From positions 1 to 49,839 of the forward strand of contig PMXQ01000151.1 in NCBI GenBank assembly GCA_003171065.1: 49,839 nucleotides of DNA, given 5' to 3'. Positions 5,780 to 44,037 of the stretch are shown here, in pieces (positions within the stretch are counted from its first letter, which is position 1; every line of letters begins with the position of its first letter). This DNA is from Chloroflexota bacterium (GTDB lineage Bacteria > Chloroflexota > Limnocylindria > Limnocylindrales > CSP1-4). The notes below the pieces were generated by a model, which saw nothing but the letters and a program-made list of their open reading frames with translations, ran no database searches and was not told the origin of the DNA. A program made the position numbers and the translations under genes.

Positions 5780-6901
5780 CTACTCTGCCGGCGCGGCTCC
5801 GCCGAATATGAGTGCTAGGGCGGCCGTGGCGGTCGGCTCGTCCGTGATCAAGAGGTGCAGAAGCCCGGTGCGAGCCCCCGCGACGATCGTCTCCACTTTG
5901 TTGGAGCCGGCGGCGATGCCGATCACGCGCGGCACCCTCCGCAACGTTTCGATCGGGATGGAGATGGTGCGGCGCTCCCACTCGTCGGCGACGAACGAAC
6001 CGTCCAGGCGGACGAGATGGCCGGCCACGTCTCCGACGGCGCCTCGGGCGGTCAGTCTGGCGCGCCCCGCGTCGTCGAGACGGTCCATCACCGTGCCGTA
6101 GCCGGGCGAGTAGCGCGGGGCGCCGCTCATGCCGACCAGGGCCAGACGCAACTCCCCCCAGAAGCGGGTCGTGGCGGTAACCGCGCTGTCGGCGAGCAGG
6201 GCCGTCGTCGTCGCCTCGTCGTCCAGCAGGCCCGGGGCGTGGAGCATCCGCACCGACGCCCCCATCCGCTCGGCCATCCGTCGCGCGATCTCGTTGCTGT
6301 TGAGGTGCGGGTTGCTTGCGTCCCAGCCTCCGACGAGTGGCACGACAACGGCCCGTGGCCGGCTCGCCGCCGGCATCGCCGCGACCAGCGACTCCACGGT
6401 GTATCCGCCCGTCAGTCCGATCGCGCCGTCCTCCGGCAACTCCTCGGCCACCCGCGGAGCGGCCGCCACGCCGCACAGCCGCGCCGCCAGGGCGGGGGCG
6501 GTTTCGTGGCCCGGGGTCACCCAGACCTCCACGCCGAGCGCGGCCGAAAGGGCCCGAGCCAGCGGCGCCGGCTCCTGCGGAGCGCCCTCGACGGAGATCC
6601 GCACCACGCCCGCGGCGCGGGCCAGCGCCAGCAACCGCGACACCTTGGAGATGGAGAAGCCCGTCAGCGCCGCGATCTCCGGCTGGCCGAGCGCGCGGAC
6701 GTAGTACAGCTCGGAGACGAGCCGGAGCATCTCGCGCTGGCTCGCGGCGGACGCGGCCGCCCCGGGAACCGCCACGCCGCCCGCCGGCTCGGCTCCTGCG
6801 CCCGCGCCCTCGGCGCCGGCGCTGGCTCCACCGCCCGCGCCCTCGCCGCCCGCCGGCTCGACGCTTGCTTGCTCCCCATTCCGATCGCCCGGATTCGCCA
6901 C
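5780..6901 (-). CDS. SorC/DeoR-family sugar-responsive transcriptional regulator
   Basis: About 373 residues from GTG 6901, preceded by AAGGAGAGGG. Longer readings of this frame run into the divergent PTS gene and are not credible. The first ~50 residues are Gly/Ala low-complexity. A winged helix-turn-helix follows (~57-100, ALGQPEIAALTGFSISKVSRLLALARAAG), typical of SorC-family proteins. The rest is the sugar-phosphate-binding domain: IGLTGGYTVESL, VVPLVGGWD, NSNEIARRMAE, and the late GIAAGSNKVETIVAGARTG that corresponds to the conserved 'G-x-x-K...i-ga-r-gg' segment. It is divergent from the PTS genes and presumably controls them in response to the phosphorylated substrate. Confidence 0.9.
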   Translation of the reverse strand: MANPGDRNGEQASVEPAGGEGAGGGASAGAEGAGAGAEPAGGVAVPGAAASAASQREMLRLVSELYYVRALGQPEIAALTGFSISKVSRLLALARAAGVVRISVEGAPQEPAPLARALSAALGVEVWVTPGHETAPALAARLCGVAAAPRVAEELPEDGAIGLTGGYTVESLVAAMPAASRPRAVVVPLVGGWDASNPHLNSNEIARRMAERMGASVRMLHAPGLLDDEATTTALLADSAVTATTRFWGELRLALVGMSGAPRYSPGYGTVMDRLDDAGRARLTARGAVGDVAGHLVRLDGSFVADEWERRTISIPIETLRRVPRVIGIAAGSNKVETIVAGARTGLLHLLITDEPTATAALALIFGGAAPAE

Positions 6902-6961
6902 TTGGAGGCCCTCTCCTTGACATCTCGCAGTCCCAGCCGCGAGTATACCGCCAGACAGGTT

Positions 6962-6993
6962 CCTGCAAGCCATTGCGTGAAATTCTTTGCAGG
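6962..6993. promoter_or_regulatory. Inverted repeat, candidate SorC-type operator
   Basis: CCTGCAA at 6962-6968 and its exact complement TTGCAGG at 6987-6993 are centred 25 bases apart, in the 201-base intergenic region between the divergent SorC-type regulator and the EIIA gene. Position and symmetry fit a site for a multimeric SorC-family regulator acting on both promoters. Binding is inferred. Confidence 0.5.
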
Positions 6994-7102: not shown

Positions 7103-7510
7103 GTGCGCTCGTTTCGGATCGTCATCGCCGGCCACGGAACGCTGCCCGCTGCCATGCTGGCGACGGCCGAGCTGATCTGCGGCCAGATCCCGGATCTGGC
7201 GGCGGTCGGTCTCGAGCCGACGGAAACCCCCGACCACTATGCCGAGGGCCTGCGCGCCGCAATCGGCCACGACCACCGACCCGTCGTGGTGCTGTGCGAC
7301 CTGCTCGGCGGCACGCCGTTCAACATTGCGTCGGCCATCGCGCGCCGCTCGCCGCGTGTGATCTGCATCGCCGGCGCGAACCTGGCGATGGTCGTGGAAG
7401 CCGCCCTCGCCGCCGGCACGCTGGACGACGCGCTGGTCGAGCGACTCATCGAGGTCGGCCGAGGCGGCATCGTCGAGACGGAGCGCCACCGCGCCCGCCG
7501 GGCCTCCTGA
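7103..7510 (+). CDS. PTS system mannose/sorbose-family EIIA component
   Basis: 135 residues from GTG 7103 with GGAGG seven bases upstream. This is a complete EIIA-Man fold domain: the phospho-acceptor His11 lies in IVIAGHGTLPAAML, followed by the AELICGQI helix and the conserved LCDLLGGTPFN segment, then GANLAMVVEA. EIIA accepts phosphate from HPr and passes it to EIIB. It is the first gene of the PTS operon, and the EIIB start follows 17 bases after its stop. No HPr or enzyme I gene lies in the window. Confidence 0.93.
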   Translation: MRSFRIVIAGHGTLPAAMLATAELICGQIPDLAAVGLEPTETPDHYAEGLRAAIGHDHRPVVVLCDLLGGTPFNIASAIARRSPRVICIAGANLAMVVEAALAAGTLDDALVERLIEVGRGGIVETERHRARRAS

Positions 7511-7527: not shown

Positions 7528-8010
7528 GTGAGCCTTCGTCTCGTCCGCATCGACGACCGCCTAATCCACGGCCAGGTCGTGGCCGGGTGGCTGCGCGCCC
7601 TCGGCGCGCAGCGGATCGTGATCGTCGACGACGCCACGGCTCGCGACGAGTTTCTGCGGGAAGTGCTGACGCTGGCGGCTCCGCAGGGCGTCCCGGTCGA
7701 GGTCCACGGCGTGGCCGACGGCGCCGCTCGCCTGATCACCCTGGCCGGCACGCCGGAGCCGATCATCGTCCTGGCCCGAATGCCTCGGACATTGCTAGCT
7801 CTTCGCCACGCCGGCGTCCCTATCGAAGTGGTGGATCTCGGGGGCATGGGCGCCGGCCCCGGTCGACGGCGCCTCCACAAGACGATCTCCGCCAGCCCGG
7901 ACGAGCTCCGGGAGCTGCGGGAGCTGGAGCAGATGGGCACGCGGGTCGAGATCCAGATCGTCGCGGATGATCGGCCGATCCCGTTCCGGTCGCTCGATCA
8001 GAGCAACTGA
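7528..8010 (+). CDS. PTS system mannose/sorbose-family EIIB component
   Basis: 160 residues from GTG 7528, with AGAGG nine bases upstream. The N-terminus carries RLVRIDDRLIHGQVV, with His14 as the phospho-acceptor typical of EIIB-Man/Sor, then VIVDDATARDE. It has the normal single-domain EIIB length. It transfers phosphate from EIIA to the incoming sugar bound by EIIC/EIID. Order A-B-C(D) with a SorC regulator matches the sorbose-type arrangement, but the substrate cannot be assigned from sequence. Confidence 0.93.
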   Translation: MSLRLVRIDDRLIHGQVVAGWLRALGAQRIVIVDDATARDEFLREVLTLAAPQGVPVEVHGVADGAARLITLAGTPEPIIVLARMPRTLLALRHAGVPIEVVDLGGMGAGPGRRRLHKTISASPDELRELRELEQMGTRVEIQIVADDRPIPFRSLDQSN

Positions 8011-8053
8011 GCCGGACGGCCGCGAACGGCCGGTCGGCAAAGAGAGGAGACGC

Positions 8054-10003
8054 ATGTACAGGAAGCTCGCGGCGGTCAGCGCCGGCCTGATGCTGGTGGC
8101 GCTGCTGGCCGGCGCGATGCCCGGAGCGGTGCTGGGCGCGAGCGCGCCGGCCGGCGCCTCGACCGATACGAGCAGGATCACGGTCGCAGCCTGGCAGGCC
8201 GCGCTCATCGCGATCGGCTACTACCTGGCGAACAGCCCCTGGCTCTTCGGCGTCGCCTATTTCACGTTGTACCGACCGCTGGTGGCCGGTTTCTTCGTCG
8301 GCCTGATCCTCGGCGATCCGGCCCAGGGCACGCTCATCGGAGCGGCCATCAACGTACCCTACCTGGGCTTCATCTCGGCCGGCGGGAACCTGCCCGTCGA
8401 TCCCGCCCTCCCGGGCTGGGCCGGAACCACGATCGCGCTGGCCAGCGGCCTGGGGCCGAGCAGCATCATCTCGATCGCCGTGCTCCTGGGCCTGCTGGGC
8501 ACGCTCCTCTTCTACGGCCGGATGGCGATCGACTCGGTCTTCGCCCACTGGGCCGATGCTCGAGCCGAGAAGGCGGACATAAGCGGCGTAGCCCTGATGA
8601 ACCTGGTGCCGAGCCAGATCCTGCTCTTCGTGATCAGCTGGGTCCCCGTCTACCTACTGGCGCTCAACGGTCCGGCCTATGTGAACGACGCCCTCAACAA
8701 TCTACCCGGCTGGGTCACCAACGGGCTGGTCATCGCCGGCGGCATCCTGCCAGCAATCGGCATTGCGCTCACGATGAGGTTCATCTTCCGCGGCTCGGTG
8801 GTCCCCTATTTCTTCGTCGGCTTCATCCTGTTCACCTTCACTCACGGCTCCATGTCTCTGGTGGTCGTCGCCGCCATCGGCCTGGCGCTGGCATACCTCC
8901 ACTTGAGCTTCACCGGCGCCAACGCCCCGAAGGCCGCCGCAGCGCCGGGGCCTTCCTCCGAGGCCGTCCCGGCAGCCGCGTCGCCCAGTTCTACCGCCGA
9001 GCCCGCCGTCCGACTAACTCGCGGCGACCTGCTTCGGTCGTGGGCGCTGTGGACCTTCTTCTCGCAAGCCAACTACAACTACGAGCGCCTCCAGGGCACC
9101 GGCTTCGCACACGCCATGACGCCCATAATCCGTCGCCTCTACCACACGGAGGACGAGATCCGAGCGGCGCTCAAGCGGCATCTGGTCTTCTTCAACACCG
9201 AGCCCAACTTCGGCAACATCATCCACGGCACCGTCATCGCCATGGAGGAGCAGCGGGCCAATGGGGCGGCGATCGACGACGACGCCATCAACTCGGTCAA
9301 GTCCGGGCTGATGGGTCCGCTGGCCGGTATCGGCGACACGCTCAGCCAGAGCACGATCACGCCGATCCTCCTCGCCTTGGGCATCGGCATCGCCGGCGGA
9401 ACCGCCAGCGGCGGGACCATCCCGACCATCGGCGCGGGCGCCACCGGCAACCCGCTTGGGCCCATCGTGTATGCCGTGCTCGTCTCCATCGTCATCGTGG
9501 GCATCGGCTACACGGCCTGGATGCAGGGCTACTCGAGAGGCCGCGCCTTCGTCACGGACCTGCTTCGCTCCGGCACGATCGATCGCGTCCTGGTCGGAGC
9601 GGGCGTGCTGGGCAACCTAGTCCTGGGCGCCCTGGCAGCCAAGTACATCACCGTCTACCTGGCACCGACCATCACGATCGCAGGCGCCCAGCTCAACATC
9701 CAGGCCTCCGTCATCGACCCGATCTTCCCGGGAGCGCTCCCACTCGGCCTGGTCCTGCTGACCTGGTGGTTGCTGCGGCGGCGGGTCAACCCGCTGGCAC
9801 TGCTGGCCGTCTACCTGCTGTTCGCGATCGTGGCCGCCTACCCGTTCTTCGGCCCGGACCACACCAGCTCGACCGACCCGGCCGCGCAGTACCAGGTCTG
9901 CACGTCATCCCTGCTGCATCCCTACTACCCCTGCGGCGCGCCACCGGCGCCGACGGTCGCGCCCACGGCCGCACCCTCCGCTGCGGCCACGCCCCAGCCA
10001 TAG
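8054..10003 (+). CDS. Fused PTS EIIC-EIID permease (mannose/sorbose family)
   Basis: 649 residues from ATG 8054 (GAGGAG five bases upstream). Residues 1-35 look like a signal peptide or extra helix (MYRKLAAVSAGLMLVALLAG, then an Ala-rich end). Residues ~40-288 are EIIC: YRPLVAGFFVGLILGDPAQG, GAAINVPYLGFISAGG, and several helices. A ~30-residue Ala/Pro/Ser linker follows. Residues ~320-615 are EIID: SWALWTFFSQANYNYERLQG, HLVFFNTEPNFGNIIHG, GLMGPLAGIGDTLSQSTITP. The C-terminus is a Pro/Ala/Thr-rich tail with two Cys. EIIC and EIID are normally separate chains, so this single-chain channel is unusual. It forms the membrane translocator for the sugar phosphorylated by EIIB. Confidence 0.92.
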   Translation: MYRKLAAVSAGLMLVALLAGAMPGAVLGASAPAGASTDTSRITVAAWQAALIAIGYYLANSPWLFGVAYFTLYRPLVAGFFVGLILGDPAQGTLIGAAINVPYLGFISAGGNLPVDPALPGWAGTTIALASGLGPSSIISIAVLLGLLGTLLFYGRMAIDSVFAHWADARAEKADISGVALMNLVPSQILLFVISWVPVYLLALNGPAYVNDALNNLPGWVTNGLVIAGGILPAIGIALTMRFIFRGSVVPYFFVGFILFTFTHGSMSLVVVAAIGLALAYLHLSFTGANAPKAAAAPGPSSEAVPAAASPSSTAEPAVRLTRGDLLRSWALWTFFSQANYNYERLQGTGFAHAMTPIIRRLYHTEDEIRAALKRHLVFFNTEPNFGNIIHGTVIAMEEQRANGAAIDDDAINSVKSGLMGPLAGIGDTLSQSTITPILLALGIGIAGGTASGGTIPTIGAGATGNPLGPIVYAVLVSIVIVGIGYTAWMQGYSRGRAFVTDLLRSGTIDRVLVGAGVLGNLVLGALAAKYITVYLAPTITIAGAQLNIQASVIDPIFPGALPLGLVLLTWWLLRRRVNPLALLAVYLLFAIVAAYPFFGPDHTSSTDPAAQYQVCTSSLLHPYYPCGAPPAPTVAPTAAPSAAATPQP

Positions 10004-29578: not shown

Positions 29579-31459
29579 TCAGGCGGTAATAGGCGACTTG
29601 TCCCAGTCGATGGCGACGTCCTGGTTCTTGTTCGCCTCATCGACCGCGACCGCGACCTTCACCCCCGGCGCCACCAAGGCCACTTTGGCCAGTGGAACGC
29701 GATGGCCGAAGACCGCGGGGAACGGCTCTTGACCGGCCAGTGTGACCTCGACGGTGAAGAGCCACATCGGGTCGTTGAGACGCGAGGGATCTGCCGCGGG
29801 ATTGATGTCGCGAACGGTCTTGCCCATGGGTTGCGCCGTGGTGATGACCGCGGTGCCGTGCGTGCCGGTGGCGAGGAGCTGATCGGCGCTGCCCTTGATC
29901 GTGGGCAGCTTGCCGCTGCGCACCGCCCCAATCACCGCGGCCACGTCGCCGGCCTCGGGCTGTCCGTTGGCATCGAAGTTGAAGTCCATGCCATCGGGCC
30001 CGGCGGCGGGGGCGGCAGCAGCCTGTGAAGCTCCGCCCATCTGGCTGAAGTCGATCGAGACCTTCTGCGGATCGGTCGGATCGATCAGGACGCCGACGCG
30101 AGCCCCAGGCACGACCATCGGGATGTACAGGCGCGGAACCAATGCCTTCACTTCGACCTGGTACGGCGCGCCGCCCGCGGCCGGCGTGACCTGCAGGCCA
30201 AACTTGTACTCGGGCGCGTCGGGCCCGACAGAGGGCATCGACACGGTCGTGCCCGTGTCGGTGATGCTCTCGATGACCGCGTCACCGGGCAGGCCGCCCT
30301 TGATGGGCCCCGTGGTGCCGCTCAGCTTTCGTATGAGCCATGAGCCGTAGAACGGGCTGCCGACTCCGATGGCGACCATCGCGATGGCGAAGACCACCCA
30401 GAACCAGAACTCCAACCCGAGCCCTCCCGGCCCGGAGGAAGAGGCGGCCGAGCCGCTCTGGACGGCGTCGATCGCCGCCAGCAGCGCGGCCTGGACGTCA
30501 CCGCTGGGTGCCGCCTCGTCGCTCAGCGTGTCAGATTTCCACGGCGCGACCTCGTGGTACGAGTCCCACAGGTTCGAGCTATTCGTCTGGACGTAGCCGG
30601 CGATCTCCTTGTCGGAGACGCTCAGCGCGATGATGAGAGCATTGTCGAAATCGCTGCTCAGCCCTGCGCCATTGAAGAAGGCAGCCGTCGACGGATCGGT
30701 GTCGCCAAGCGAGATGTCGATGTAGACCGGCGCGCCGATCTTGCCGGACAGTGCGGTGGCCGCGGCCTCTGCCTTCTGCTTGCCGGTCACGTCCAGGACT
30801 CCCGTGCCGTCGAAGACGTTCGTTCCGCTCAGGAAGGCATCGGCGCGAGCCAGAGACGACATGATCCAGCTGGCGAGCGTTTGCGGTCCCGACGATGTGT
30901 CGATTGCGCTCGCCTGATCCTTGCCGAGCTTGGCCTTGAGAATGGGCCCCATCATCAGCTCGCCTTCGCCGTCCGAGCCGGTCAGCAGCATGCCATTGAT
31001 CTGCCAGTCCGCAATCAGGCTGCTCGTGTCCGGCATGTCCTCGGGCTGGGCCGTCGTGTAGACCACGACCCGGCCGCCGCCCCTCGCCTCGATGTCCGCC
31101 GCCAGGGTTTCGGCCTGGGTCGCGGAACTCGCGGAGAGCACGCTGCCGTAGTCGTAGACGTGGCGACCGGGGGCAATGGGCGACATCGTGGGCTGGGGCG
31201 CCGTGGTCGGCCTGGCAGTCTTGGTCGGCTTGGCCGCCGCGGTGGACTTTGCCGTCGTGGTGGATTTCGCAATCGCGGTGTGTTTCGCAGTCGCGGTGGG
31301 TTGCGCAGCTGTCACGGGGCCGGCCGCGGCGAGGCCGGCGGCCAGGAAGCCGAACAGGCCGAGCACGAGAACCGCGAGAAGCGGTGCGGCGCTGGCGCGC
31401 CTGTACCCTCGCGTTTGAGTCGACGCCAGCCCCGGCTTCGAGTCCGGCAGCAGCCTCAT
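29579..31459 (-). CDS. Signal-anchored TPM-domain membrane protein with large C-terminal domain
   Basis: 626 residues from ATG 31459 with AGGAGG six bases upstream. A signal or anchor helix lies at ~25-48, then a Thr/Ala/Lys repeat (TAK-rich, ~55-90) as a wall-spanning linker. Residues ~98-330 form a TPM-like domain (YDYGSVLSASSATQAETLAADI, GGGRVVVYTT, DKEIAGYVQTNSS). A membrane helix follows at ~350-375 (FWFWVVFAIAMVAIGV). The ~250-residue C-terminal part is beta-rich and is closely matched by the separate gene at 31651-32409. The TPM face is probably outside and the C-terminal domain inside. The biochemical role is unknown. Confidence 0.75.
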   Translation of the reverse strand: MRLLPDSKPGLASTQTRGYRRASAAPLLAVLVLGLFGFLAAGLAAAGPVTAAQPTATAKHTAIAKSTTTAKSTAAAKPTKTARPTTAPQPTMSPIAPGRHVYDYGSVLSASSATQAETLAADIEARGGGRVVVYTTAQPEDMPDTSSLIADWQINGMLLTGSDGEGELMMGPILKAKLGKDQASAIDTSSGPQTLASWIMSSLARADAFLSGTNVFDGTGVLDVTGKQKAEAAATALSGKIGAPVYIDISLGDTDPSTAAFFNGAGLSSDFDNALIIALSVSDKEIAGYVQTNSSNLWDSYHEVAPWKSDTLSDEAAPSGDVQAALLAAIDAVQSGSAASSSGPGGLGLEFWFWVVFAIAMVAIGVGSPFYGSWLIRKLSGTTGPIKGGLPGDAVIESITDTGTTVSMPSVGPDAPEYKFGLQVTPAAGGAPYQVEVKALVPRLYIPMVVPGARVGVLIDPTDPQKVSIDFSQMGGASQAAAAPAAGPDGMDFNFDANGQPEAGDVAAVIGAVRSGKLPTIKGSADQLLATGTHGTAVITTAQPMGKTVRDINPAADPSRLNDPMWLFTVEVTLAGQEPFPAVFGHRVPLAKVALVAPGVKVAVAVDEANKNQDVAIDWDKSPITA

Positions 31460-31650: not shown

Positions 31651-32409
31651 CTATGCGATCGGCGACTGGTCCCAGTCGATCGCGACTTCCTGGTTCTTGT
31701 TGGCCTCATTGACGGCGACCGCGAGCTTCACGCCGGGGGCCACCGAGGCAAGCTTTGCCACGGGCACGCGATGACCGAACACGGCCGGGAACGGCGCCTG
31801 CCCGGCGAGGGTGACCTCGACGGTGAAGATCCACACCGGGTCGTTCAGGCGCGACGGATCGGCCGCCGGGTTGATGTCTCGAACGGTCTTGCCGAGGGGC
31901 ATGGCCGTGGTGATGACAGCGGTGCCGTGCGTGCCGGTGGCCAGGAGCTGGTCGGCGCTGCCCTTGATCGTGTTGACCGAGCCGCTCCGAACGCCGCTGG
32001 CCACCGCTGCGACTTCGCCGGCCGCTGGCTGGCCGCTGGCATCGAAGTCCATGTTGAAGCCGCCGGGCGCGACCGGCGCCGCGGGTGCGGCCCCGCCGAC
32101 GCGGGTGAAGTCGGGCGAGACGTTCATCGGGTTGAGCGGGTCGACCATGACGCCGATCCGCGCTCCGGGCAGGACCATCGGGATGTAGAGCCGCGGAATC
32201 GCCGACTTGACCGTGACCTGATAGGGCGCGCCGGCGCCACCGATCGGAGTGACTTGTAGACCCAGCTGGTACACGGGCGCCTCGGGCCCGACGGACGGCG
32301 ACGAGATCGTCGTGCCGGTGTCGGCGATGCTTTCGATCATCGCGTCACTGGGTACGCCGTTCTTAACAGGGCCCGCGATTCCGGTCATCTTGCGCATCAA
32401 GAAGTCCAC
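31651..32409 (-). CDS. Soluble paralogue of the C-terminal domain of the TPM-domain protein
   Basis: 252 residues from GTG 32409, with AGGAGGAG upstream; earlier in-frame starts at up to 32583 lack support. It starts at a point equal to the residue just after the membrane helix of the neighbouring protein (FLMRKMTGIAGPVKNG against WLIRKLSGTTGPIKGG) and then matches it almost to the end: GTT-x-S-PSVGP, APYQV, PRLYIPMV-PGAR-GV, IKGSADQLLATGTHGTAV, PFPAVFGHRVP, ANKNQ-VAIDWD-SP. It looks like a tandem duplication that kept only the cytoplasmic half. Function unknown. Confidence 0.8.
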   Translation of the reverse strand: MDFLMRKMTGIAGPVKNGVPSDAMIESIADTGTTISSPSVGPEAPVYQLGLQVTPIGGAGAPYQVTVKSAIPRLYIPMVLPGARIGVMVDPLNPMNVSPDFTRVGGAAPAAPVAPGGFNMDFDASGQPAAGEVAAVASGVRSGSVNTIKGSADQLLATGTHGTAVITTAMPLGKTVRDINPAADPSRLNDPVWIFTVEVTLAGQAPFPAVFGHRVPVAKLASVAPGVKLAVAVNEANKNQEVAIDWDQSPIA

Positions 32410-32609
32410 CGGGCATCTCCTCCTGGGCACGCTCCCCACCAGGCCTTCCGGTTCGCGCGAACTGGCGAGGACGGCGGCGGTGCTTACCATACAAGCCGCC
32501 ATGGAAGTGGGGACCGCCACGCGCCTGCCGACCCATTCTGGGATACTCACGTCTTGCTGGACTTCCCCCAATTGAGAGTGCATGACATGCCCGCGGGCAG
32601 CTCACTGAA

Positions 32610-41624: not shown

Positions 41625-42596
41625 CTACTGACCGAATATTGGCGCGCTGGCCTTGTCTGACAGCCACTCCTTCGTGATCTGATCCAGCGTTCCGTCGCTC
41701 TTGAGAGCAGCAATCGCCTGGTTGACGCACGTCGTCAGCGAGCTGCCCTTGGCCAGGACCAGGCTGAAGTGCTCGGCGTTGGCCCCCTGGGTGGCCGGGA
41801 ACTGGCCGACGATGACGCTGTTGTCCAGCTGGGCCGAGGTGATGTAGAAGGCCGTCGGCAGGTCGACGACCAGGCCGTCTATCTGCTTGGCCTTGAGCGC
41901 CTGGATGGCCGCGTCGTTGGTGTTGTAAACGGAAGTCTTCGCCGTCGGCGCGATCACGTTCTGGATCGTCGTGTATGCGGTCGTGCCCACCTGGGCGCCG
42001 AACTTGTACTGCTTCAGGTCGGCGATCGTCTTGGCGGAGGCGATTGGGTTGGACTTGAGCGCGACGACTGACTGATTCACAAAGTAGTAGCCGTCCGACA
42101 TGTCGACGGCCTGCGCGCGCTCGGGCGTGTAGGAGACCTGTGCAAGGTAGAAGTCGAAGGGCTTGGCACCGGGCGCGTAGGAGTTATCGAAGGGGACGAC
42201 GGTCCAGGCCACGTCAGCCTGGGCGAAGCCCAGCTTCTGGGCGACCGCATAGGCGACTGCGCTCTCGAAACCCTGGCCGTTGGTCGGGTCGCCGAGTTTC
42301 CACGGAGCGGGGGCGTTGCCGCTGGCGGGCGGCTGGAAGTAGGGCGGGTAAGCCGGGTTGTCGGTGCCGATGGTCAGCTTGCTGGCGGTCAGCGTCTTCA
42401 GGAGCGACTTGTCGCACGGGTTCGCCGTGGGTGTCGGCGTGATCGTGACCAATATGGGCGTGGGCGCCGCCGTCGGGGCCTGAGTCGGGGCCGGCGTGGG
42501 CGTCGGCGGCGGGGTCGGCGTGGCGGCAGCCGAGCACGCGGCGATCATGGCCGCGAGCAAGGGCAGTGACAGAATCCTCACAGGGCGACGAGCCAT
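41625..42596 (-). CDS. Polar amino-acid ABC transporter substrate-binding lipoprotein (copy 1)
   Basis: 323 residues from ATG 42596, four bases after GAGGAGG. The lipoprotein signal ends at IAAC (Cys21). A Pro/Thr-rich linker follows, then a family-3 binding fold: LTIGTDNPAYPPYFQPP, NGQGFESAVAYAVAQKLGF, VDMSDGYYFVNQSVVAL, IADLKQYKFGAQVGTTAY, and the hinge VYNTNDAAIQALKAKQIDGLVVDLPTA. It binds an amino acid outside the cell for the downstream permease and ATPase. A close relative is encoded at 43066. Confidence 0.94.
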   Translation of the reverse strand: MARRPVRILSLPLLAAMIAACSAAATPTPPPTPTPAPTQAPTAAPTPILVTITPTPTANPCDKSLLKTLTASKLTIGTDNPAYPPYFQPPASGNAPAPWKLGDPTNGQGFESAVAYAVAQKLGFAQADVAWTVVPFDNSYAPGAKPFDFYLAQVSYTPERAQAVDMSDGYYFVNQSVVALKSNPIASAKTIADLKQYKFGAQVGTTAYTTIQNVIAPTAKTSVYNTNDAAIQALKAKQIDGLVVDLPTAFYITSAQLDNSVIVGQFPATQGANAEHFSLVLAKGSSLTTCVNQAIAALKSDGTLDQITKEWLSDKASAPIFGQ

Positions 42597-43065: not shown

Positions 43066-43953
43066 CTACTGGGTGAAGATGGGCACGCTGGCCTTCTCGG
43101 AGAGCCACTGCGTGATGATTTGGGCGAGCGTGCCGTCGGCGTTGAGCGACGCGATGGCGCTGTTGACGCATGTCGTCATCGAGCTGCCCTTGGCCAGAAC
43201 TAGGCTGAAATGCTCGGCGCTGGCGCCCTGCGCGACCGGGAACTGACCGACGATGACGCTGTTGTCCAGCTGGGTCGAGGTGATATCGAAGGCGGTCGGA
43301 AGGTCGACCACCAGGCCGTCGATCTGCTGGGCCTTGAGGGCCTGGATGGCCGCGTCGTTGCTGTCGTACACGGAGGTCTTGGTCGACGGCGCGATCACGT
43401 TCTGGATCGTGTCGTATGCCATCGTGCCCTGCTGAGCGCCGATCTTGTAGTTCTTCAGATCGGCGATCGACTTGGCGCCGGCGATCGGGTTGGCCGCCAG
43501 CGAGACGACCGCCTGGGCGACGAAGTAGTAGCCGTCGGACATGTCGACCTGCTGGGCGCGGTCAGCCGTGTACGAGACCTGGGCCAGGTAGAAGTCGAAC
43601 GGCTTGGCGCCGGGCTTGTACGAGTCGTCGAACGGGACCACGGTCAAGACGACGTCGGCGTTCGCGTAGTCGAGCTTGCCGGCGACGGCGTACGCGACGG
43701 CACTCTCGAAACCCTGGCCGGACAGGAGCCGCTGGATGTTGTCGGTGCCGATAGTGAGCTTGCCGGCGGTCAGCGTCTTCAGGAGTGACTTGTCGCACGG
43801 GTTCGCCGTGGGTGTCGGCGTGATCGTGACCGATATGGGCGTGGGCGCCGGCGGCGGGGTCGGGACCGGGGTCGGCGTGGCGGCAGCCGAGCACGAGGCG
43901 ATCATGGCCGCGAGCAAGGGCAGTGACAGAATCCTCACAGGGCGACGAGTCAT
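43066..43953 (-). CDS. Polar amino-acid ABC transporter substrate-binding lipoprotein (copy 2, shortened loop)
   Basis: 295 residues from ATG 43953 with GAGGAGG four bases upstream. The N-terminal signal is almost identical to copy 1 and ends at IASC. The family-3 fold is present (GQGFESAVAYAVAGKLDY, VDMSDGYYFVAQAVVSL, VYDSNDAAIQALKAQQIDGLVVDLPTAFD). The segment after IGTDN is shorter than in copy 1 by about 20 residues, replacing the PAYPPYFQPP loop with IQRLLS. That loop normally contacts the ligand, so binding may be altered or lost. No intact permease or ATPase follows; it could use those of copy 1. Confidence 0.88.
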   Translation of the reverse strand: MTRRPVRILSLPLLAAMIASCSAAATPTPVPTPPPAPTPISVTITPTPTANPCDKSLLKTLTAGKLTIGTDNIQRLLSGQGFESAVAYAVAGKLDYANADVVLTVVPFDDSYKPGAKPFDFYLAQVSYTADRAQQVDMSDGYYFVAQAVVSLAANPIAGAKSIADLKNYKIGAQQGTMAYDTIQNVIAPSTKTSVYDSNDAAIQALKAQQIDGLVVDLPTAFDITSTQLDNSVIVGQFPVAQGASAEHFSLVLAKGSSMTTCVNSAIASLNADGTLAQIITQWLSEKASVPIFTQ

Positions 43954-44037
43954 TGGGCCTCCTCGAAGTGCGACGGTCCGAAGACAAGAGTCTAGCCGAG
44001 ACCGCACCCCCAAACCCGATCGGCGGCCGGTCAGCTC
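43954..44037 (-). promoter_or_regulatory. Upstream region of binding-protein copy 2
   Basis: Near-identical to 42597-42680, as noted there; the two blocks end at the same point (gatcggcggccggtcagctcc). It overlaps the end of the PadR-like gene at 44031, so the duplication boundary lies at or near that gene's stop. Confidence 0.5.

Follow-up and report, generated by a model that had tools for sequence, protein, structure and literature searches.

A mannose-family PTS permease with EIIC and EIID encoded as one chain, and the recurrence of this architecture in Chloroflexota

Does the open reading frame at 8054..10003 encode a true fusion of EIIC and EIID, two components of a phosphotransferase system (PTS) permease, or does it merely appear to, and, if the fusion is real, is it peculiar to one lineage? 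The frame lies in a 49,839-nucleotide stretch of Chloroflexota DNA (hereafter the window), which comes from a 3.0 Mb assembly of 151 contigs that is 88% complete. An initial annotation described one 649-residue frame holding both complete domains and regarded such a fusion as unusual. The description is borne out by translation and by both Pfam profiles, each covered nearly in its entirety: PF03609 at aa 47-281 (208 bits, cut-off 26.3) and PF03613 at aa 321-595 (258 bits, cut-off 25), with EIIC preceding EIID in the single frame (the ‘IICD’ arrangement). The rarity is not, as fused genes turn up again in Chloroflexota and in one Enterococcus, and PMC3024867 tabulates one for Clostridium beijerinckii. 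The features discussed here are as follows.

5780..6973, minus strand: SorC/DeoR-type sugar-binding transcriptional regulator (PF04198, Sugar-bind, 145 bits; start uncertain)
7103..7510, plus strand: EIIA of the Man family, with the His in ‘AGHG’ (PF03610, 63 bits)
7528..8010, plus strand: EIIB of the sorbose subfamily, with the His in ‘RLIHGQV’ (PF03830, 133 bits)
8045..8049, plus strand: AGGAG, read from the sequence as the ribosome-binding site for the fused gene
8054..10003, plus strand: fused EIIC-EIID gene (649 aa, then a stop, by translation)
8054..8140, plus strand: signal-like N-terminus, aa 1-29 (from hydropathy and the layout across the clade)
8192..8896, plus strand: EIIC domain, aa 47-281 (PF03609, EII-Sor, profile match)
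8897..9013, plus strand: Ala/Pro/Ser-rich linker, about aa 282-320, predicted to be cytoplasmic
9014..9838, plus strand: EIID domain, aa 321-595 (PF03613, EIID-AGA, profile match)
9839..10000, plus strand: C-terminal tail, aa 596-649, two Cys followed by a Pro/Ala/Thr-rich stretch, predicted to be extracytoplasmic

One frame across the genus

The fused protein has a single match within its own genome and finds matches in 28 of the 101 genomes searched, including all 21 of the genus; Chloroflexi/Chloroflexota metagenome-assembled genomes (MAGs) make up 22 of the 28 named loci reached with it, 15 of these 22 having ‘fen’ in their names. The AGGAG precedes the ATG start at 8054, and the upstream ATG at 7967 lacks a Shine–Dalgarno (SD)-like motif. 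Across loci L001-L023 (the 21 genomes of the genus and a single genome from each of the genera g22 and g23), an SD-like motif, loosely defined, accompanies the matching start, and the start lies ahead of the signal-like segment, in 22 of 23, the exception in both respects being L014, whose N-terminus falls inside an ‘N’ gap.

Both domains stand in one frame across the junction in every one of these 23 loci. Gaps of ‘N’ occur inside EIID in L017 and L021, and the frame of L023 (genome G009) breaks downstream within EIID, not within the linker. Because 23 genomes carry one frame over the junction, with linkers that differ in length, chance and error are excluded: the gene at 8054..10003 is a genuine fusion and no assembly slip. 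A sequencing error joining two genes was what the initial annotation had named as fatal to its reading, and such a join, by faulty assembly or faulty sequencing, is now extremely improbable. Its appeal was that the sequences come from MAG data, that some relatives contain gaps and broken frames, and that the tree nests one unfused locus, L024, within the fused clade; against it stands the agreement of the 23 assemblies.

The Ala/Pro/Ser linker described initially was found between the domains, and the linkers of the 23 loci are 29-50 residues long, mostly rich in the same residues and poorly conserved. In a comparison of five pairs, third codon positions account for most of the changes in both domains; in the linker this bias is weaker, and non-synonymous codon changes outnumber synonymous ones in three of the five pairs. 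Judged by these changes, the linker is weakly constrained, in the manner of an unconstrained tether. It is improbable that the chain is cut there to yield separate EIIC and EIID subunits, or that an internal start yields additional EIID. The low complexity and variability of the linker would suit such a reading, as would the presence of some start codon within the junction in 17 of 23 loci and of an SD-like site in 4 of 23, but no EIID start inside the junction is conserved across the 23 loci, and an internal start was rejected on that ground; the junction of the gene at 8054..10003 offers a TTG, without an SD-like motif, as its sole start codon; and the predicted cytoplasmic position would keep the linker away from extracytoplasmic proteases. 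The fixed 1:1 ratio of EIIC to EIID that had been deduced from the fusion would follow from a true single frame.

Broken copies of the fused gene were also seen. That of G009 (L030:339-2459) is broken inside EIID by a frame change and an internal TGA, and one on contig C101 of G013 (L029:1255-2427) is broken inside EIID by an internal TGA. The two broken stretches show 98.6% identity across 980 bases and have the internal TGA in common, whereas the C101 DNA ahead of this stretch is only about 79% like that of G009; for this reason C101 may be a chimeric contig.

Partners, fold and topology

The fused gene is the last of an EIIA-EIIB-EIICD operon, from which the SorC-type regulator gene is divergent; a SorC-type gene lies beside the PTS genes of relatives too, fused as well as split. 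The His of the EIIA ‘AGHG’, which we take to be the phosphorylated one, is retained in 31 of 31 aligned loci, and that of the EIIB ‘RLIHGQV’ in 33 of 33 (in both counts some loci repeat one genome); EIIB of the Man family is phosphorylated on His rather than Cys. Of the 101 genomes, 54 have EI (PF05524) and 53 have HPr (PF00381); within the genus both were detected in 20 of 21 genomes, the source genome included, and neither was detected in G006, a genome of the genus that is about 90% complete. HPr and EI share one frame in the source genome (G000, contig C115:3603-5579, within L134:3540-5900; start uncertain), and HPr-EI fusions are already known (PMC2405797). With the His residues of EIIA and EIIB kept and HPr and EI present, the phosphoryl chain of the source genome is, at the level of its genes, complete.

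Elsewhere, HPr and EI are separate adjoining genes in G017 (L136:4655-6816), about 1.3 kb from the fused EIICD of that genome, and in the unfused loci L050 (3524-5356) and L052 (3958-5793) an EI-like gene, judged by its leading residues, lies just ahead of SorC-EIIA-EIIB-EIIC-EIID.

According to PMC3024867 and PMC2405797, EIID is confined to the Man family of PTS permeases, and the locus has the whole set expected of that family (PF03609 EIIC, PF03613 EIID, PF03610 EIIA and PF03830 EIIB, with EI and HPr in the genome). The proteins fall short of the NCBIfam cut-offs that mark particular PTS subfamilies, so that no substrate can be named. The genes beyond SorC-EIIA-EIIB vary among relatives: aminotransferase and transketolase-like genes lie downstream of the fused gene and also in some relatives, EamA-like genes were identified by Pfam near the PTS in L050 and G017 (with look-alikes in the open reading frame (ORF) lists of L052 and L140), and GH127 adjoins the PTS of G017. 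None of these neighbours names a sugar.

The initial annotation had proposed structure prediction against known EIIC-EIID structures as a check. An AlphaFold model, computed from an alignment (A1) of the protein with 40 other fused sequences, has a mean pLDDT of 82.6 and a pTM of 0.82, confidence being low at residues 22-39, over part of the linker and along the tail. At E <= 0.001 the PDB gave 18 matches, every one a man-PTS chain, with TM-scores of 0.52-0.83. On target length, the EIID half scores 0.83 against 6k1h_C and the EIIC half 0.83 against 9wjr_F and 0.82 against 6k1h_B, while most other man-PTS chains score 0.52-0.66; each half thus matches a ManYZ chain, and both EIIC and EIID have the ManYZ fold in the model.

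As described in PMC11403280, both IIC and IID contain five transmembrane helices besides two re-entrant hairpins and one amphipathic helix, a layout by which the two ends of IIC, and likewise those of IID, should lie on opposite sides of the membrane. When the sides of the loops had been assigned by eye, from model helices and charges, we counted 16 K/R among 113 ‘in’ residues and 1 among 121 ‘out’ residues; the remaining 16 rows of the clade lean in the same direction, and aa 595-649 contain 0 K/R. The model and these counts support a linker that is inside, with the EIIC N-terminus and the two-Cys tail outside. TurboID-ManZ is reported in PMC13190303 to have labelled ManX, and the TurboID-bearing end of ManZ would by inference be cytoplasmic. 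The positive-inside count and the ManYZ matches agree with the earlier expectation that EIID must start on the side where EIIC ends. The chain would run from outside to inside through EIIC and from inside to outside through EIID, a short flexible cytoplasmic linker lying between, and since EIIC would end and EIID start inside, no added transmembrane segment would be needed.

The extra hydrophobic segment and the two-Cys tail noted initially at the ends of the chain are both present. Residues 1-29 are signal-like, with an MYRK n-region, a hydrophobic core and a possible cleavage site (between PGAVLGA and S), and the tail contains Cys616 and Cys627, the only Cys of the protein (several relatives have others elsewhere). 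Every clade locus whose EIID end is complete, 26 of 26 (20 fused, 6 unfused), has two tail Cys, and none of the loci scored outside the clade does; a signal-like start without the Cys pair is seen in L082 (family f15) and perhaps in L097 (f49). The unfused relatives L024, L025, L026, L050, L052 and L085 carry the signal-like segment just as the fused loci do. As these relatives have both end features, the signal-like N-terminus and the tail probably predate the fusion, and by this comparison they are not to be read as part of it. The two Cys, predicted to lie outside the membrane, probably form a disulphide, and the conserved pair serves as a marker of the clade, whose signal-like segment probably aids export of the EIIC N-terminus.

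Taken together, the genes and the model indicate that the fused protein is very probably an ordinary Man-family permease in which the EIIC and EIID genes have merged, and transport is predicted. Phosphate would pass from PEP to EI and HPr (one chain here), to the EIIA His, to the EIIB His and to the sugar, which the EIICD chain, a single protomer in a ManYZ-like trimer, would carry across the membrane (the man-PTS trimer scaffold is described in PMC11403280). From these features we infer transport activity, the trimer, signal cleavage and the disulphide. A regulatory or degenerate PTS, in place of a transporter, would be in keeping with the one broken copy in the genus (G009) and with the lack of an evident substrate gene adjoining the operon, but is very unlikely in view of complete EIIA, EIIB, EIIC and EIID, the kept His residues, the presence of HPr and EI, and the third-position bias in both domains. 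A less remote but still doubtful alternative concerns the N-terminus, which might be an uncleaved extra helix (a signal anchor) instead of a cleaved signal peptide. The model does predict a helix at residues 2-21, at low confidence; against an anchor are the Pro and small residues that clade members have before a polar stretch (for instance GPTFAA, PGAVLGA, PASVLAD) and the pLDDT below 50 at residues 22-39. Whether cleaved or anchored, the segment would leave the EIIC N-terminus outside.

Distribution, precedents and origins

Among 400 genomes drawn from Chloroflexota, EIID was found in 24, of which 16 have it in one frame with EIIC (that of G387 breaks later) and 8 do not; two of the latter are uncertain, G306 having no EIIC on the stretch and G340 showing a frame change towards the end of EIIC. 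Family f26 has EIID in 25 of 28 genomes (33 genes), and all 31 genes fetched are fused (L104 breaks later). EIIC occurs in 39 of 177 genomes of the source class, their fusion status being known for the loci named here. The possibility raised initially, that the fusion is common in the family, therefore holds in part within Chloroflexota, the phylum where frequency was counted. Outside it, a fused gene was found in one of six genomes, that of Enterococcus sp. 669A, where an unfused EIIC/EIID pair is present as well; as the six were reached by similarity to the window protein, this is no rate. Both domains were confirmed by Pfam in 10 of 10 fused proteins checked, and EIIC comes first in all 57 fused genes counted (the 23 loci, L056, L082, L097 and the 31 of f26). 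A plasmid search gave matches in 342 of 72,556 records; EIIC and EIID are apart at the three places inspected (H4, H6 and H10), with no fused gene, and at H4 they lie in one frame with one stop between them.

The closest known systems differ in instructive ways. Escherichia coli ManY and ManZ (6k1h, 7dyr) align along both halves at 30% and 39% identity and have the same fold, and the EIIA and EIIB of that mannose PTS belong to the same families as those here; unlike the fused protein, however, ManY and ManZ are encoded by separate genes and have neither the signal-like N-terminus nor the two-Cys tail. Cbei_2901 of Clostridium beijerinckii was tabulated as ‘IICD’ in 2010 (PMC3024867, Table 2), with IIC and IID as one gene product adjoining IIB and IIA; the fusion is listed there without comment, and the likeness drawn here is that of the table entry. 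The 31 fused genes of f26 (e.g. L095, L096 and L111-L133) have the same domains with EIIC first and linkers of 29-34 residues (8 genes measured), but are distant in the tree; most begin directly at EIIC without a signal-like segment, and none of those scored has the two-Cys tail. Enterococcus sp. 669A (L056) has both Pfam domains in 548 aa, but its linker is charged, it lacks both the signal-like segment and the Cys tail, and it stands apart in the tree. The close unfused relatives, by contrast, share the signal-like EIIC start and two-Cys EIID tail, and SorC-EIIA-EIIB adjoin their genes in the three flanks fully compared (L140 for L024, L050 and L052); they differ in having two genes, not one.

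In PMC11784104, PMC8538875, PMC5861209 and PMC9472385, ‘EIICD’ or ‘IICD’ appears as shorthand for two components, and within the literature searched the Cbei_2901 table entry (PMC3024867) was the only fused IIC-IID. A description of a Chloroflexota clade with exported ends, or of repeated fusion, was not found in a search that was thin on subscription papers. With the architecture already in print (PMC3024867), the fused protein is a variant of a known transporter and not new in kind.

The tree has 45 rows (28 fused, 17 split), thinned from 69 extracted pairs, with broken copies and L015 left out. Fused and split states change 5 times on it by parsimony and at least 3 times by supported branches, a count that is blind to gain versus loss and was made on a tree with some long branches and ten rows of odd letter make-up. 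A common ancestor for all fused forms, that is, a single clade of all fused rows, was rejected (AU test, p 4e-59). On this tree the fused EIIC-EIID is no single family but an arrangement arrived at several times, and because linkers and ends differ, separate gains are favoured over losses.

The placement of L024 (genus g12) within the fused clade of the gene at 8054..10003 bears on how often that clade fused. As a fused group excluding L024 is not rejected (p 0.22), both a re-split of L024 and two fusions within the clade are compatible with the tree tests. In L024 the two genes look genuinely separate: shortly after the EIIC stop comes an ATG for EIID, preceded by a purine-rich stretch. In the six unfused relatives the EIIC stop overlaps or lies near a possible EIID start, and it was probably by way of such a short stop/start junction that adjacent EIIC and EIID genes became one.

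The chances are evenly balanced for a broader reading, namely that a clade of Chloroflexota Man permeases exports both ends of the unit and that EIIC and EIID fused repeatedly, there and elsewhere, in the order that keeps the junction cytoplasmic. If this were true, the clade would have a signal peptide before EIIC and a disulphide-closed tail after EIID, and the fused forms would amount to a naturally single-chain ManYZ. The EIIC-EIID order of the 57 fusions fits the subunit topology proposed here and makes it testable, and a one-chain EIIC-EIID could serve as a stoichiometric, taggable model of a ManYZ permease, the halves of which are separate chains in the solved structures. Apart from these uses, the fusion is a variant of modest evolutionary interest.

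Two further features of the window were seen in its ORF list. The minus-strand ORFs at 41625-42596 and 43066-44013 encode two similar tandem lipoprotein-like solute-binding proteins, of which the second looks shortened in its first third. The adjoining minus-strand ORFs at 29579-31459 and 31651-32583 are alike in their C-terminal halves, which suggests a partial duplication.
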